A stretch of DNA of 56,600 nucleotides, taken from positions 1 through 56,600 of the forward strand of contig QZKO01000003.1 in the NCBI GenBank assembly GCA_003599505.1, read 5' to 3'. The notes below the pieces were generated by a model that ran no database searches, was not told the DNA's origin, and saw nothing but the letters and a program-made list of their open reading frames with translations. Position numbers and translations under genes: made by a program. Position 1 is the stretch's first letter; every line of letters begins with the position of its first letter. Source of the stretch: Nitrospiraceae bacterium (GTDB lineage: Bacteria; Nitrospirota; Thermodesulfovibrionia; UBA6902). Of the stretch, positions 2,855 through 8,987 are shown one piece after another.

Positions 2855-3475
2855 ATGGTGAAGACAATTGAGCAATTAAATAAAGAAGACGTTAAGAAAG
2901 CGATAATGCGTTTGCATGATCTGGCTGAGGGGGCTGAAAACTGCCTGTTATCACTTCAGACCGCGTTCATTTACAATACAACAACGCCGCTGGAGGGCTT
3001 CAGCGAAACAGCCGGTAATATCAGGCAGGCGGAGGCCGGACTGACCCGGAAGCTGGCGGAGATCGCTGGCGATGACCCCGGGATTAAGCGGTATGTCCCG
3101 GTCCCCGGACACCTCCTGATAATAGGAGAGAAGCTTGAAAAATTAAGAGAACTGATGGAGAAGAAAATAAAAGGAAACGTCCTCTTCTCCGATAAGGCAG
3201 TAAAGGAAACGATCTTCCTCCTTCAAAGGCTCGGTGAAATCCTCTGGACGGCCTCTTCCCTTATGCTCGCGAGGAATACGTTTCTTGGAATGTATATTGA
3301 TGAATCCGTCCTGAATCTCGGAAAACTGGCGGATGAATATGCTTCCCAGCATGAGGAGAGGCTGATAGAGGGCCTTTGTCTGCCGGTAGCTTCATCGATA
3401 TATATCAATATGCTCGATGCCATCAGGAGCATAGCCTGGAATATAAAAGAGATAGCAAGGCATCTTGTCTCCTGA
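2855..3475 (+). CDS. Helical hypothetical protein, PhoU-like in pattern
   Basis: This 206-residue protein has no signal peptide or membrane segment. It is predicted to be almost entirely alpha-helical, with amphipathic heptads and the repeated two-bundle look of PhoU-like proteins. I see no catalytic motif. The start is secure: AGGAGG sits at 2841-2846 upstream of ATG 2855, with a consensus promoter before it. It stands alone, convergent with the IF-2-like gene downstream. A PhoU-type role in phosphate regulation is only a guess from the helix pattern. It could equally be an unrelated helical bundle. Confidence 0.6.
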   Translation: MVKTIEQLNKEDVKKAIMRLHDLAEGAENCLLSLQTAFIYNTTTPLEGFSETAGNIRQAEAGLTRKLAEIAGDDPGIKRYVPVPGHLLIIGEKLEKLRELMEKKIKGNVLFSDKAVKETIFLLQRLGEILWTASSLMLARNTFLGMYIDESVLNLGKLADEYASQHEERLIEGLCLPVASSIYINMLDAIRSIAWNIKEIARHLVS

Positions 3476-3499
3476 CGTTTTATTTGCTGCGCCGGCGCT

Positions 3500-4258
3500 T
3501 TATAATCGCTTTACGCCGCCGGCGGGTTGCCAGCCCGGCGTTTTATGGGCAGGGGAATAGCGGAAGCTTTCAACAATGTCCGCGATTTTCGCTTTATTAA
3601 AATCTCTTATTTTTATCCCGACCTTCTGTCCCGGAATCGCTTTTTGAACAACATTTTTTTCTATATGCATGGATTCTATCGTGCCGGAATAGACAGGCCC
3701 CATCGCGGAAATAATGCGAAAATGCTGGCCGACAGCCAAATGGCCGTCCAGGACTTCACAGCCTATAATAATCCCTTTCCGGCTGCTCTTGAAAAGCGCT
3801 ATGATTCTGGCGCTGCCTGTTATTGTTTCTTCCTGTAACACATGGGGGGCCATGCCTTCGGCGATACCTCGCAAGTCATCTGTCAGCTTGTAAATCACGT
3901 TATACAGCCGCGCTTCAACGTTGTGCTCAATCAGCTCCCTGTCTACGCCTGACGGCACATCCACCTGAAAACCGGCTATGAGCCTGCTCCCTGTCTCTGC
4001 CATCAGGATGTCTGATTTATGAATATCTCCAATACCGCTGTAAATGATATGTATGCCGGTGTCCGGCGGCGCAGCTTTCACAACCGCGGCAGAGACCGCC
4101 TCCAGACTCCCGGTGGAGTCACACTTCAGGACCATCTCCAGGGCCGGCTTTGCGCTCTTTACGGAAGCGTCACGCGCTCCGGGTTGATGAGTATGCAGCC
4201 ACTCCTTGCTTTTTGCAGGAGCTACCGGATAAAAGGCTTTATTATGTTTATGAGTCAT
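3500..4258 (-). CDS. Stand-alone IF-2 C-terminal domains (III and IV) protein, no GTPase
   Basis: Residues from about 38 on follow the C-terminal half of translation initiation factor IF-2. One segment carries VLKCDSTGSLEAVSAAV and GIGDIHKSDILMA (IF-2 domain III, with VIYKLTDDL before the linker helix). A second segment carries KGIIIGCEVLDG and KIADIVESF (domain IV, the fMet-tRNA-binding beta barrel in IF-2). The G domain and domain II are absent: the protein has 252 residues against roughly 700-1000 for IF-2. A basic, His-rich N terminus of about 35 residues has no IF-2 counterpart. ATG 4258 is preferred; an in-frame TTG at 4267 is possible. The gene follows the terminator of the hsp20 gene, so it is probably its own unit. 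The intact frame argues against a decayed infB copy. Function is unknown; it might bind initiator tRNA or the ribosome without GTP hydrolysis. Confidence 0.8.
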   Translation of the reverse strand: MTHKHNKAFYPVAPAKSKEWLHTHQPGARDASVKSAKPALEMVLKCDSTGSLEAVSAAVVKAAPPDTGIHIIYSGIGDIHKSDILMAETGSRLIAGFQVDVPSGVDRELIEHNVEARLYNVIYKLTDDLRGIAEGMAPHVLQEETITGSARIIALFKSSRKGIIIGCEVLDGHLAVGQHFRIISAMGPVYSGTIESMHIEKNVVQKAIPGQKVGIKIRDFNKAKIADIVESFRYSPAHKTPGWQPAGGVKRL

Positions 4259-4265
4259 TCTCTTC

Positions 4266-4292
4266 AAAAAGAAACCCCGGCTTTTGCCGGGG
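4266..4292 (-). terminator. Rho-independent terminator after hsp20
   Basis: CCCCGGC and GCCGGGG (4275-4292) form a seven-base-pair GC stem with a four-base loop. Read on the minus strand, a T-rich run follows (the complement of 4266-4274). The IF-2-like gene starts immediately behind it. Confidence 0.8.
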
Positions 4293-4319
4293 CTTCCATC
4301 CGCAGGTCATCACAGAGGG

Positions 4320-4817
4320 TTAATCGATCGAGATCTTTTTGTGCTTCTTTTCAGCTTCCTTCAGCATCGGGATTCTCAGCTCGAGCACGCCCTTATCATA
4401 GTGAGCGATGATCTTCTCCGTATCCAGATCGCCGGGCAGCTCGAATCTGCGATGGAAGGTTCCGAAATAGCGCTCGCTCCTGTAATAGTCGCCCTTTTCG
4501 ATCTTCTCTGTCTTCGTCTTCTCGCCGGAAATAGTGAGCATATTTTCGCTCAGGTCAATCCTTATGTCTTCCTTCTTCATGCCGGGCAGGTCGGCTTTCA
4601 GCACTACGAAGTTGTCTTCCTCGTAAATGTCGACAATCGGTGTAATCCCATACAGTTCGGAACGGAGGTCAACATCAGAGAAAATCGACGGAGTCAGCAG
4701 CGAAAACGGTCTCTTCCACATATCTTCGAACCACTTTTCAACATCATAGAACGGAGTCACGGGAAAAGTTCTCTCTCTTTCCCTCTTGACCAGATCTTTC
4801 AATCCTTTTACCGCCAT
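4320..4817 (-). CDS. Hsp20/alpha-crystallin small heat-shock protein
   Basis: This ATP-independent holdase chaperone keeps unfolding proteins soluble. The protein has 165 residues. A variable N-terminal arm (1-55) precedes an alpha-crystallin domain with VDIYEEDNFVVLKADLPGM near 60-80, ISGEK and YGTFHRRFELP-like strands near 96-125 and the hallmark GVLEL segment near 142. A Lys-rich tail with a degenerate I-x-I-type motif (RIPML) ends it. It is of normal family length. The Shine-Dalgarno GGAGGTG lies just upstream of ATG 4817 but can be folded into a hairpin (see the next entry). A strong terminator follows the gene. Confidence 0.95.
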   Translation of the reverse strand: MAVKGLKDLVKRERERTFPVTPFYDVEKWFEDMWKRPFSLLTPSIFSDVDLRSELYGITPIVDIYEEDNFVVLKADLPGMKKEDIRIDLSENMLTISGEKTKTEKIEKGDYYRSERYFGTFHRRFELPGDLDTEKIIAHYDKGVLELRIPMLKEAEKKHKKISID

Positions 4818-4860
4818 AATTACACCTCCTCTCCGGAGGAGAATTCTCTACCTCCTCCTA
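4815..4860 (-). promoter_or_regulatory. Possible RNA thermometer or switch in the hsp20 leader
   Basis: Read on the minus strand, three purine/pyrimidine blocks follow each other: GGAGGAG, then CTCCTCC, then GAGGAGG (which contains the ribosome-binding site). The middle block can pair with the third (stem CTCCTC/GAGGAG, loop CGGA), hiding the Shine-Dalgarno. It can instead pair with the first, freeing it. Small heat-shock genes are the classic targets of leader thermosensors (ROSE, fourU). The pairing is seen in the sequence; the switching is inferred. Confidence 0.5.
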
Positions 4861-4983
4861 ACTTAATTTTATCTCTGTTTTTTATAGAATGCAAGCGGTT
4901 TTTATCTTTATTAATCGAGGAGTTGCATGACTAAGGACGCAGGCTTGTTTTAAGGCCGCAAGGGCGTGAAACAACGATGATTT

Positions 4984-6678
4984 TCAGACGCCTTTTTCAG
5001 CCATCCACCTGGTCATCACATTCTCTAACACATTCAGGGGCAGGGCGCCGTTTTCAAGGAGCCTGTCGTGAAATTCCCTGATATCGAACCCCGGACCGAG
5101 GGCCTTCTTTGCTTTTTCTCTCAATTCGAGTATTTTCAATTCACCGGTCTTGTACGCAAGGGCCTGTCCGGGCATGGCAATATAGCGGTCAACTTCTACC
5201 TCTATTTCGTGGTCTTCCTCACCGGAATTTTCCCTGCAGTATCGTACCGCCTCATCACGGCTCCATCTGAAGAAATGGATGCCCGTATCCACGACAAGCC
5301 TCACGGCCCTCCATATTTCAAACATCAGCCTGCCGTATTCGGAAAAATCATCTTTGTAAAAACCCATTTCCCCGGCAAGTTTTTCAGCGTACAGGGCCCA
5401 CCCTTCTATAAAGGCTGTGGAGCCTTCATATCTTCTGAAGTCAGGCAGACCCTTCCTCTCCTGCATGAGGGCTATCTGGAGATGGTGTCCCGGGACAGCC
5501 TCATGATAAGACAGCGCTTCCGTGATAAACTTCGGTCTTTCTTCCGGCTTGTACGTATTCGCGTAAAAATAACCGGGCCTGGAGAAATCATCCGGCGGCG
5601 GATAGTAATACGCGGCAGGGGCCGCCTGCTCCCTGTATTTTTCAATCTCTTTTATGTCGTATTCTGCTTTGGGCAGCGCCCCGAAATAATCAGGAAGCCG
5701 CTTATCCATGTGAGACAGGATGTCCCTGTAACTGTCAAGGATCTCCTGCCGGTCCCTGAAATTAAGCTCCTTTTTTTCCTTGATATAATCGGTAAACTCC
5801 CTGATGCTTCCGGTGAACCCTATCTTCCGCATGATCTTTTCTATTCCGCTGCTTATTCTCGCGACCTCGTTTTTGCCGGTTTCGTGGATCTCTTCCGGAG
5901 ACAGGTCTGTTGTGGTGTGGTACCTCACAAAAAAACCGTACATGGCAATTCCATCAGGCAAGGCCCATATCCCTTCCTGCTCCCTGCAGCGCTTTATGTA
6001 TTCCACGCTCAGATATTGATGCAGTTTTACGTAGGCAGGGGTCACACGCGAGGTGAGCGCTTCTTTTATTGAAGTTTTTATTCCCTCCCTGTCCTGCTCT
6101 GAAAAACCGTCATTCAGTTTCAGGACAGGTGAATACAACGGGTTCTCCTCCGGAGAGAATTTCGTAAAGGTCTCTGCCTGTCCGGCGGCGGTCTCCATGT
6201 TCCTTTTATAGGCCGTCATTCCGAGGCTTATGCCTTTTTGCAGGTTTTCAATGACCTGTTCTATCTGGCGGGGGAAGGCATTTAACCGCGCAATGTAATT
6301 TTCCATGTCCTCCAGTGTGTTGAAAGGGTGAAATTCAATAAGCTGTGGAAAATCGATATGCGGACCCGACATCTGATCAAGCGGCAGGTAATGGGTTTTG
6401 AAATCGTGCATCTTTATGTGGTTCTGAAGGGTGTCCTGGAGGAGGTCGCGGTCCAGTTTATCTTCCGGGGTCAGGAGCTTTTCATCGAGCCCCCCGGTTT
6501 TAGACAAGAGGTCTTTAAAATATTCAGCCTGCGCTGCCATCGATTCCTCTGACAGGTCTTCAAGAGCGTCATCATAACGGTGGTCACCGATATAGGTCGC
6601 AAACGTGGGATGGTGTTTAAGGATATATTCCCAGTAATCCTTGAGATGGCGATTTAATTCTTTGTTCCCGTTATTCAT
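4984..6678 (-). CDS. DUF885 family metallopeptidase-like protein
   Basis: This 564-residue protein is a DUF885 (COG4805) member, a family fold-related to M2/M3-type zinc peptidases. The diagnostic HEAVPGHHLQIAL segment lies near 393-405 and contains the presumed zinc-binding histidines. EGWALYAEKL near 427 supplies the second conserved glutamate. There is no signal peptide, so it is likely cytosolic, unlike many relatives that are lipoproteins. Substrates are not established. The start ATG 6678 fits the family's N-terminal helix (LNRHLKDYWEY); no good ribosome-binding site is visible. It is a single gene followed by a short gap to the hsp20 promoter region. Confidence 0.85.
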   Translation of the reverse strand: MNNGNKELNRHLKDYWEYILKHHPTFATYIGDHRYDDALEDLSEESMAAQAEYFKDLLSKTGGLDEKLLTPEDKLDRDLLQDTLQNHIKMHDFKTHYLPLDQMSGPHIDFPQLIEFHPFNTLEDMENYIARLNAFPRQIEQVIENLQKGISLGMTAYKRNMETAAGQAETFTKFSPEENPLYSPVLKLNDGFSEQDREGIKTSIKEALTSRVTPAYVKLHQYLSVEYIKRCREQEGIWALPDGIAMYGFFVRYHTTTDLSPEEIHETGKNEVARISSGIEKIMRKIGFTGSIREFTDYIKEKKELNFRDRQEILDSYRDILSHMDKRLPDYFGALPKAEYDIKEIEKYREQAAPAAYYYPPPDDFSRPGYFYANTYKPEERPKFITEALSYHEAVPGHHLQIALMQERKGLPDFRRYEGSTAFIEGWALYAEKLAGEMGFYKDDFSEYGRLMFEIWRAVRLVVDTGIHFFRWSRDEAVRYCRENSGEEDHEIEVEVDRYIAMPGQALAYKTGELKILELREKAKKALGPGFDIREFHDRLLENGALPLNVLENVMTRWMAEKGV

Positions 6679-6814: not shown

Positions 6815-7120
6815 TCAAACAGCTTTGGAATAAACTCTTACTTCCTGTTCTAAACGCTTTCCAATCTCATCAGCAGTCACATCTAAATCATACTGTGACT
6901 GCAATCCAAGCCAAAACTCGGCAGACGTTCCAAAAAACCTTGCCAATCTCAACGCTGTATCTGCTGTAATTCTCCGCTTCTCAAGAACAATTTCGTTAAT
7001 ACGTCTTGCAGGTACACCGATACTTAAAGCAAGTTTATTTTGAGTCAGACCCATGGGTTTAAGAAACTCTTCCATGAGAACTTCGCCGGGATGTATTGGT
7101 TGCAACTTTTTAGTCTTCAT
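6815..7120 (-). CDS. higA: HigA-type antitoxin (XRE/HTH), toxin gene missing
   Basis: It belongs to the HigA addiction-module antidote family: 101 residues with IHPGEVLMEEFLKPMGL at the start, an XRE helix-turn-helix (LTQNKLALSIGVPARRINEI, about 26-45) and RFFGTSAEFWLGLQSQYDL at the C-terminal side. It normally binds DNA and neutralises HigB. ATG 7120 is chosen because homologues start at MKTKK; an upstream in-frame ATG at 7195 would add 25 residues unlike the family. higB normally lies directly upstream, but here only about 100 bases separate higA from the inverted repeat of the transposase element. The toxin was therefore probably lost or displaced by that insertion. Confidence 0.82.
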   Translation of the reverse strand: MKTKKLQPIHPGEVLMEEFLKPMGLTQNKLALSIGVPARRINEIVLEKRRITADTALRLARFFGTSAEFWLGLQSQYDLDVTADEIGKRLEQEVRVYSKAV

Positions 7121-7218
7121 ATTTCTGTTACCTCTAATGAAGGGAATGGGTGACCCCGTACGCCTGACCCGTTCTCTAATTTCTTGAGGAGTCATGGAAA
7201 ACGAATGGGAAAACGAAT

Positions 7219-8264
7219 GGGGTCAGGCTTAAATATTGAGTTTTTTTAATATACCGATAACTCTTCCCATCTCTTCTTTATATCGGCTTCTGTCTTTGAG
7301 AACTATCGATATTATAGCAGGATCTCTTTTTATATATTCACCTATCTCTTTCCCCTTATATCCATATTCCTTTGCTGCGAGAATTAATAATTTCCTGCCT
7401 GTTGATATCCGAGCAAATTTGCTTTTTCCATGTATCTGCTTAAGCGTGACCCCTGTTATCTTTTCCACTCCTTCTGATATCATTCTCAGACTGTACTCTC
7501 TTTCCCTCTTGCTGTTTTTAAATTCTACGTCATACTTTTCCATCACATTATCAAGAAACTCTTCACTGCCGAGTACCCGTTGTTCAACTGTTCTATAAAC
7601 TTCCTCTCTCTTTATAGCCAACCCATCCCCCATAAATTCTCTGTAAAGTTCTTTCGACCTCACCCGGTCTTCCGAAAACATCCGTAAAACACGGTCCGTG
7701 TCAACAAGCCCGTTATTTTGTCCTTTATCCGCATAACACTGATGACTGCTCCACTTGTACTCATTTAAATCTTGGACCATCTTCGCTCTTAAAGGATTCA
7801 TGTGAATGTATTTAACAAGTGAAAGCAAATATGCGTCCCTGTCACAGAGGATCGCTTTGTATCTTCCCTGAAACAGATGACCGACCATCTTATATCTTCT
7901 GTTGAAATACATGGTATAACTCTGGTTTATTCCCTGCTGAATCTTTGAAAGAGGCGTTCCCCCTGTTTCAATTAGCAGATGTATATGGTTGCTCATTAAT
8001 ACAAAACTATAGAGACGAAACTGATGGCGCTTTTTATAATTGGAAACTATTTCAAGATATTTTAGAAAGTCCCTTTTATCCCTGAATATCTTTTCTCTCC
8101 AGTTGCCCCTTGTTATGACGTGATAGAACGCCCCTTCGTATTCTATCCTCGGTTTTCTTGCCATGTCCCCACTTCTTTAATGATAATTAAAACGGTAATA
8201 GCTTACAATCAGTTCTTATTTTATTTCAAGCCAGATAAATATCTCAATTTTTAAGCCTGACCCC
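7219..8264 (-). mobile_element. RAYT element bounded by 22-base inverted repeats
   Basis: The transposase gene is framed by 7219-7240 (GGGGTCAGGCTTAAATATTG then AG) and 8243-8264. The second is its reverse complement with one mismatch in 22. The left repeat overlaps the transposase stop codon. The core GGGGTCAGG matches the palindrome found inside mqnE at 28572-28598, so these repeats look like the REP sequences this enzyme handles. TGACCCCGTACG lies at or near both outer borders (7151 and 8259) and again at 9019. Confidence 0.7.
7229..8164 (-). CDS. REP-associated tyrosine transposase (Y1/HUH family) with C-terminal DnaA-like HTH
   Basis: The first 150 residues form a Y1 HUH nuclease domain. 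The metal-binding NHIHLL (H60, H62) is followed by the helix QSYTMYFNRRY holding the nucleophilic tyrosine (Y83 or Y86) and GHLFQGRYKA. The C-terminal 100 residues (around 225-311) resemble a DnaA C-terminal helix-turn-helix, as in long RAYT proteins. RAYTs cut single-stranded REP hairpins. The frame is intact at 311 residues. It stands alone between inverted repeats with no partner gene, as is typical of domesticated RAYTs. Confidence 0.9.
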   Translation of the reverse strand: MARKPRIEYEGAFYHVITRGNWREKIFRDKRDFLKYLEIVSNYKKRHQFRLYSFVLMSNHIHLLIETGGTPLSKIQQGINQSYTMYFNRRYKMVGHLFQGRYKAILCDRDAYLLSLVKYIHMNPLRAKMVQDLNEYKWSSHQCYADKGQNNGLVDTDRVLRMFSEDRVRSKELYREFMGDGLAIKREEVYRTVEQRVLGSEEFLDNVMEKYDVEFKNSKREREYSLRMISEGVEKITGVTLKQIHGKSKFARISTGRKLLILAAKEYGYKGKEIGEYIKRDPAIISIVLKDRSRYKEEMGRVIGILKKLNI

Positions 8265-8270
8265 GTACGT

Positions 8271-8891
8271 TCGTATCTGAACGTACTGGACACGATATGG
8301 AAAACGAAGAAGGTACAGGAGAGATTTGAGGCGCGGCTAATCCGTTATGCTGATGACTTTGTCGTATTGTGTAAAGGCAATACGGAGAGGATATTAAAGG
8401 GGATAAAGACAGTACTCGGGGACTTGCAATTAAGCCTTAACGAGGAAAAGACAAAAGTGGTAAACGCAAGGGAGGAGAGCTTCAACTTTCTTGGGTTTAC
8501 GATTAAGGTAAAGGAGAACCCGGGAACCGGAAAGAAATTTCCTTTAATAGTGCCGTCGAAGAAGGCGATGCGGCACATAAAGGCGGAGATAAAGAAACTG
8601 ACCTGCAGGCGGAACTCTGCATTACCGAAAGAGATAGTCGTCAGCAAAGTCAACGAGATCGTCAGAGGATGGGTGAACTATTTCTACTATGGAAACTGTA
8701 GCAATGACCTGCTGAAACTGAAGGGATATCTTGACGAAAGAATTAGGACGTACCTGCGACGCAAGCATCAGGTGAAGAATCGGGGATATAAAACATTCCC
8801 CTATCGGTACTTGTATGAAGACCTCGGCTTATATAAGATACCGACAACAGCCCCGTGGACTCAGAAAGTGAAAGCCTCTGGAAGAAGATGA
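8271..8891 (+). pseudogene. ltrA: Truncated group II intron reverse transcriptase/maturase
   Basis: The frame opens at 8271 with YLNVLD, the segment that normally follows SPLLSN in intron RTs, so everything before RT block 4/5 is lost. The catalytic RYADDFVVL box is retained at about 8340-8369. The thumb and maturase (GIIM) domain follows: VNEIVRGWVNYFYYG and RRKHQVKNRGY. The last 206 residues of an enzyme of about 420-480 remain. No start codon or ribosome site exists for it, and a TTG at 8367 lies inside the active-site block. Confidence 0.8.
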
Positions 8892-8987
8892 TTGGAAAGC
8901 CGTATTCGGGAAAACTGAATGTACGGTTTGATGAGGGGGAACTGGAGACAGGGCATCTCTTGCCACTGCGCCAGTTCTCTACTCTAC
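8271..8987 (+). mobile_element. 3' remnant of a group II intron (RT end, domains V and VI)
   Basis: The 3' end of a bacterial group II intron is present. After the reverse-transcriptase fragment, a 34-base domain V lies at about 8896-8929: AAGCCGTA pairs with TACGGTTT, inner stem TTCGG pairs with CTGAA, tetraloop-like GAAAA, and the catalytic AGC lies in the first strand. GATGAGGGGG and a domain VI-like stem follow, ending in CTCTAC near 8987. The 5' part of the intron is missing; the break is exactly at the RAYT-element border, so the intron is dead. Confidence 0.75.

Follow-up and report, generated by a model that had tools for sequence, protein, structure and literature searches.

The bacterial factor IF2, encoded by infB, is to our knowledge universal and usually present as one gene per genome. 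In E. coli, the isoforms IF2-2 and IF2-3 arise at internal infB starts and retain the GTPase. They are shortened IF2 forms that occur beside the full factor, as described in PMC3334882. A GTPase-free lone barrel is also found in the PF0907-type EF-Tu domain 2-like proteins (4pgo and 1xe1), whose chains of 90–91 residues hold the barrel only. The fMet pocket of Geobacillus IF2 consists of R654, Q655, F657, G667, and E713 according to PMC4611024. In addition, R700 is the equivalent of E. coli R847, and PMC8709274 reports that R847G strongly lowers the affinity for fMet-tRNA. A search of titles and abstracts, with thin coverage of subscription journals, found no published description of a stand-alone IF2 C1–C2 protein. 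The gene described here encodes a protein of this type. Unlike the E. coli isoforms, it is a separate gene and GTPase-free, and, unlike the PF0907-type chains, its product has a C1 domain before the barrel.

The gene was found in a draft genome of 2.64 Mb in 87 contigs (95% complete), and the window analyzed is one whole contig of 56,600 nucleotides. An open reading frame on the minus strand (3500–4258) runs uninterrupted from an ATG to a stop and encodes 252 residues. The program-made list of reading frames places the start at a TTG at 4267, three codons before this ATG. The ATG is backed by an M-x-H sequence at the N terminus in all 11 rows of family f1 in which the start was read, and one row from family f20 (G457) also begins MTHK. 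The Pfam profile PF11987 (IF-2, C1 domain) matches at 80.4 bits against a cut-off of 27, covering positions 22–116 of 117, which establishes that C1 is present. A weak match to an EF-Tu/IF2-type barrel is given by PF14578 (EF-Tu domain 4; 25.0 bits, cut-off 23.8), and PF03144 stays below its cut-off in this protein. The NCBIfam equivalog model for infB, TIGR00487, is covered only from 385 to 583 of its 587 positions (130.5 bits, cut-off 424.4), and no IF2 profile match from NCBIfam lies upstream of residue 42. The TIGR00487 match is confined to this part of the profile, so the protein lacks both the G domain and domain II. The earlier note had described an intact 252-residue gene for IF-2 domains III–IV free of the GTPase, and the reading frame, Pfam, and NCBIfam all bear this out.

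Four segments can be distinguished along the minus strand. The N-terminal tail (residues 1–38; 4145–4258) carries the M-x-H start, lies outside the IF2 profile, and is modeled with low confidence. The C1 (domain III) fold follows at residues 39–137 (3848–4144), and the C2 (domain IV) beta-barrel occupies residues 144–234 (3557–3829). A C-terminal tail (residues 238–252; 3503–3547) is modeled with high confidence and has a Trp conserved in 18 of the 20 aligned rows; the proteins from G022 and G035 stop short of it.

An AlphaFold model built on 71 rows (pLDDT 85, pTM 0.56) replaced a shallow one (10 rows, pLDDT 59.9). The model is confident for C1, C2, and the last part of the C-terminal tail but not for the N terminus; in the C2 barrel, block pLDDT is mostly at least 90. 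Structure comparison ranks IF2 chains highest, most of them from ribosome complexes, with Z scores of 16.7 to 9a4o and 16.6 to 7unv. The whole-length rmsd to these two is approximately 8 Å, and it ranges from approximately 7 to 19 Å across the top rows, probably because the angle between the domains differs or is uncertain in the model. Taken alone, C1 superposes on 9h9h and 9hfn with an rmsd of 1.8–1.9 Å. For C2, the comparison with 2crv gives a Z score of 14.9 and an rmsd of 4.4 Å over 102 residues, and the PF0907-type barrels 4pgo and 1xe1 match with Z scores of 12.7 and 12.6 and rmsd values of 2.0 and 1.9 Å over 87 residues. As modeled, both the C1 and the C2 folds of IF2 are kept.

Orthologues with similar domain limits, which the earlier note had proposed looking for, were found in the same class, which is probably Thermodesulfovibrionia of the Nitrospirota. 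At E values up to 1e-60, 24 of 230 genomes of the class carry the gene, the window's genome counted in, and 19 aligned orthologues are 52–71% identical. The carriers fall into four families (12 in f1, 3 in f9, 5 in f17, and 4 in f20). No match at this threshold was found in the other 206 genomes, and the gene therefore looks dispensable. A phylum-wide set gave 14 carriers among 395 genomes, every one in the same class. A scan of genome contigs with the single protein returned no match, and an alignment-based scan did find relatives; among the best 80 of its 289 relatives, the short frames came from 13 Nitrospirota loci, apart from one at L179, which is IF2-like and has its 5' end cut by a contig edge. 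No internal stop occurs in 23 of the 24 class matches. The exception is in G022, where the protein ends before the tail, as it likewise does in G035. In G015 the gene is interrupted by an N run, and in G020 it is cut at the end of a contig.

Within family f1 (37 genomes), presence follows genus: 4 of 10 genomes in g1, 4 of 5 in g7, 1 of 1 in g12, 2 of 4 in g14, 1 of 1 in g15, and none in the other ten genera. The chromosomal region of the gene is common to g7 and g15. Given this pattern and the common region, descent with losses fits better than frequent transfer, and we infer that the gene has been kept mainly in this way. A mobile or phage origin was considered and rejected. No relative of the protein was found in viral contigs, and it has no PHROGs or PADLOC family. 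A tblastn search matched 46 plasmid records and 19 phage records, in every case below 60% identity; the 10 plasmid or phage matches listed are 28–32% identical, with 3 annotated as infB and the rest unannotated there.

The tree and two further alignments comprise 20 of the 24 carriers, all except G015 (fewer than 170 model positions) and G420, G452, and G457, which were identified afterwards; an earlier alignment was made without L076 (from G020, cut by a contig edge) and L079 (from G015, with an N run). The tree has 131 rows, comprising 20 stand-alone and 111 IF2 sequences, after one IF2 row shorter than 300 aa (L056) was set aside from 132. All 20 stand-alone rows form one clade with support of 100/100, which every one of the 200 bootstrap trees recovers. 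Summed over its two halves, the stem of this clade measures approximately 1.9 changes per column; the tree is unrooted, and the position of long stems is difficult to establish. The class's own IF2 rows (n = 45) form a separate clade (100/99), and the stand-alone clade lies outside it. These separate clades indicate that the gene is not a recent copy of its hosts' infB. It almost certainly represents a separate family of IF2 paralogues.

The stand-alone gene is under purifying selection, which is weaker than that on infB. Its dN/dS is 0.12–0.29 (nine pairs, three methods) and that of the IF2 C-terminal region is 0.03–0.07 (three pairs), values that are rough, as dS exceeds 1 in some pairs. In three matched pairs, the IF2 C-terminal region is approximately 3 to 9 times more strongly constrained than the stand-alone gene.

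Full infB was not found in the window's own assembly, which raises the question of whether infB could be split here, with the gene as its C-terminal half. The count of infB in carriers covers the 12 carriers of family f1. Nine of these 12 also have an IF2 gene, with eight frames of 764–836 aa and one of 446 aa near a contig start (G015). The remaining three are G026, G023, and the window's genome (G000). In the first, a piece of infB lies at the start of a contig (G026:C70), and the second has an N run inside clpX (L275), a gene that adjoins infB in six of eight relatives (not in G003 or G006). In G007, a noncarrier without a complete infB, clpX lies at a contig end (L276). The clpX–infB region is thus broken in several f1 assemblies by an N run or contig ends, with the result that infB looks absent when it is probably present. 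On the other side of infB, most of the eight relatives have DUF503-, rbfA-, nrnA-, and truB-like genes; names at these loci were assigned by sight, and some frames are masked by overlapping ones. In the window's genome there is no true clpX, with the best match 44% identical compared with 82–86% in G007 and G023. A search for rbfA found none there; as a control, it was run on 14 other genomes and gave a match in 10. The window's genome does have nusA, in a different setting. Since clpX stands apart from infB in two relatives, the absence of rbfA is stronger evidence for a gap.

As rbfA and clpX are missing too, the lack of infB points to an assembly gap and not to a split gene, and such a gap is the likely explanation, seen only through the missing neighbors. 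The check for a full infB elsewhere that the earlier note proposed thus gives an IF2 gene in nine of the 12 f1 carriers and no full infB in the gene's own assembly. The split-gene reading, which draws on that absence, has next to no probability and was rejected: nine relatives carry both genes, the listed matches to IF2s are 29–36% identical compared with 91–99% between IF2 C-terminal regions in three same-family pairs, and the tree and selection also speak against it. The loci of the stand-alone gene also lie apart from the infB locus of relatives (rbfA-like gene, and clpX in 6 of 8). A dying duplicate of infB would account for the patchy presence and for constraint weaker than on infB. It is equally improbable, however, given the lack of internal stops in 23 of 24 class matches, the old clade with its long stem and own invariant residues, and dN/dS well under 1, and it is contradicted by conservation across four families. 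The earlier note had judged the gene not an obvious relic, and this conservation under purifying selection agrees.

Conservation was compared with 51 IF2s, chosen from 112 by a length of at least 600 and low word sharing. Columns kept in at least 85% of these were counted as conserved (n = 62), and a column was scored as kept when 10 or more of the 20 stand-alone rows retained it. On this basis, 39 of 62 columns are kept and 23 are lost. C2 has lost 13 of its 31 columns and C1 10 of its 31 (21 of the 31 before residue 144 are kept), a small difference. Charged conserved columns are lost in 10 of 18 cases and others in 13 of 44, which is no clear excess (p = 0.08). The count of losses is not special to C2; their placement is.

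Pocket residues were mapped onto the stand-alone rows through an alignment with PDB structures. R654 is Ile in all 20 rows and Q655 is Ala in all 20, a position that is itself loose in IF2 (Q in 20 of 51). E713 is lost in 18 rows and retained in 2, and R700 is lost in 19 and retained in 1. F657 and G667 are unchanged in every row. With R700 counted in, two of six pocket residues are therefore kept throughout and the other four are replaced in 18–20 of 20 rows. Also as in bacterial IF2, all 20 rows keep a Cys that we take to be C668, as well as the equivalent of G715. A different Cys, present in all 51 IF2s, is replaced by Val, Ala, or Met in every stand-alone row. G715 is a named IF2 residue in PMC4236685. 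New invariants in the stand-alone C2 include I153, A154, G187–P188, and H198, plus others. The C2 barrel has a median pI of 9.67 compared with 6.56 in the 51 IF2s and a net charge of +5 compared with 0 (p = 2e-10, by a statistic that ignores kinship). The net charge of C1 is about alike (−5.5 and −5 in IF2), and the C1–C2 core overall is slightly acidic (median net −2, compared with −5 in IF2). By its sequence, the C2 barrel is rebuilt, with the fMet pocket largely replaced and the charge moved from roughly neutral to basic. The phrase "tRNA-binding half of IF-2" in the earlier note is accurate for the domains, as C1 and C2 are both there, but not for the residues of C2 that bind fMet-tRNA, which are mostly replaced.

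Neighborhoods of the gene were compared by BLAST clustering at 23 of the 24 loci (all except G452), several of them cut by contig ends. The earlier note pointed to a small heat-shock gene as neighbor; an Hsp20 gene (Pfam) does lie upstream on the same strand (4320–4817, minus), but it is not a conserved partner, as just 3 of 23 loci have one nearby. Two loci, those of the window and of G387, have a UvrD/PcrA-type helicase gene in the vicinity. The sole setting seen across genera joins the four g7 loci and the one g15 locus and includes genes that by sight resemble cmk, rpsA, HU/IHF, and sirohaem synthase; they lie close to the IF2-like gene in g7 and 2–8 kb off in G023. This common setting supports descent more than function. 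No neighbor linking the stand-alone gene to translation was found in the 23 loci.

Between the Hsp20 stop and the ATG of the IF2-like gene lies a terminator-like hairpin of 12 pairs followed by U5 (4270–4297, minus; −23.4 kcal/mol, z −5.5). Its core is found once in the window, with 0.02 expected, and a consensus scan of 3300–5000 reported neither this hairpin nor any promoter. About a dozen bases separate the end of the U run from the start codon. With so little space for a promoter of the gene's own, transcription by read-through or from a start within hsp20 is possible. In two genus mates (L069 and L070), a short inverted repeat with a Shine–Dalgarno-like stretch was seen by eye directly before the start. 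The hairpin or inverted repeat might gate expression.

Several other features were noted in the window. A 206-aa frame (2855–3475, plus) that neither Pfam nor NCBIfam matches at E 0.001 is convergent with the IF2-like gene. A 126-aa HTH_3 protein (6815–7195, minus) resembles a lone HigA-type antitoxin, a label given by sight. A Y1 (IS200-like) transposase (7229–8164, minus) has a weak, sub-cut-off match at its end resembling the DnaA C terminus. A group II intron remnant (8367–8987, plus) has a 174-aa frame with the maturase-specific GIIM domain and, after it, a match to group II intron RNA (RF00029, 46.2 bits, 8895–8987).

The most likely reading, at about an even chance, is a neofunctionalized IF2 paralogue that acts as a GTP-independent RNA- or ribosome-binding accessory factor and not as a carrier of fMet-tRNA. 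The protein is an old bacterial IF2 paralogue cut down to C1 and C2, without the GTPase. Its C2 barrel would use the new basic face, together with a pocket centered on invariant His198, to contact rRNA or the end of a tRNA, and this contact may fall in or near the ribosomal site used by IF2 C1–C2 or by EF-Tu domain 2. The paralogue would then modulate initiation or subunit state alongside IF2 without delivering fMet-tRNA. A role in translation or on the ribosome as such is quite possible, if a little short of even. Against the proposal stand the lack of a translation-linked neighbor in the 23 loci, a charge statistic that ignores kinship, the still slightly acidic C1–C2 core, the similar column losses in the two domains, the weaker constraint than on IF2, and the 206 class genomes with no match at the threshold. 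A more specific version, in which the docking of C1 follows that of IF2 while the rebuilt barrel (with invariant His198, hydrophobic Ile153–Ala154, and a basic rim) would hold a non-formylated, deacylated, or peptidyl tRNA or fill the IF2/EF-Tu site of idle ribosomes, seems distinctly unlikely; it is rated lower because column losses are similar in C1 and C2.

Two other functions can be set against the accessory-factor proposal. The protein could have left translation and become a nucleic-acid or protein scaffold elsewhere, for example in DNA restart or RNA turnover. This reading is a serious contender, though on balance unlikely. The basic, rebuilt barrel would suit it, PMC3334882 ties E. coli IF2 isoforms to effects on replication restart, and a helicase gene lies nearby in the window and G387. 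That association is limited to 2 of 23 loci, however, and the retention of 21 of 31 IF2-conserved columns in C1 also argues against it. Alternatively, the protein could bind fMet-tRNA like isolated IF2 C2, compete with IF2, and modulate initiation under stress. According to PMC4611024, isolated C2 matches complete IF2 in the strength of its fMet-tRNA binding, and the stand-alone rows do keep F657 and G667, with E713 in 2 of 20 and R700 in 1 of 20. The replacement of R654, Q655, E713, and R700 in nearly every row speaks against such binding, as does the strong loss of affinity in the E. coli R847G (R700) variant (PMC8709274). The stress aspect is further weakened by the scarcity of Hsp20 neighbors. 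This reading appears improbable, and an fMet-tRNA role is judged less likely than the new RNA- or ribosome-binding role.

Like bacterial IF2, the stand-alone protein has the C1 fold and a C2 barrel. Unlike IF2, it has no G domain or domain II, has lost R700, carries the invariant His198 and Gly187–Pro188 in a basic C2, and belongs to its own clade at a different locus. We infer that such genes are likely to be annotated as "IF-2," which would mislead marker-gene work. If the version with C1 docking and a rebuilt barrel were true, these bacteria would have a second, GTPase-free way to gate initiation.
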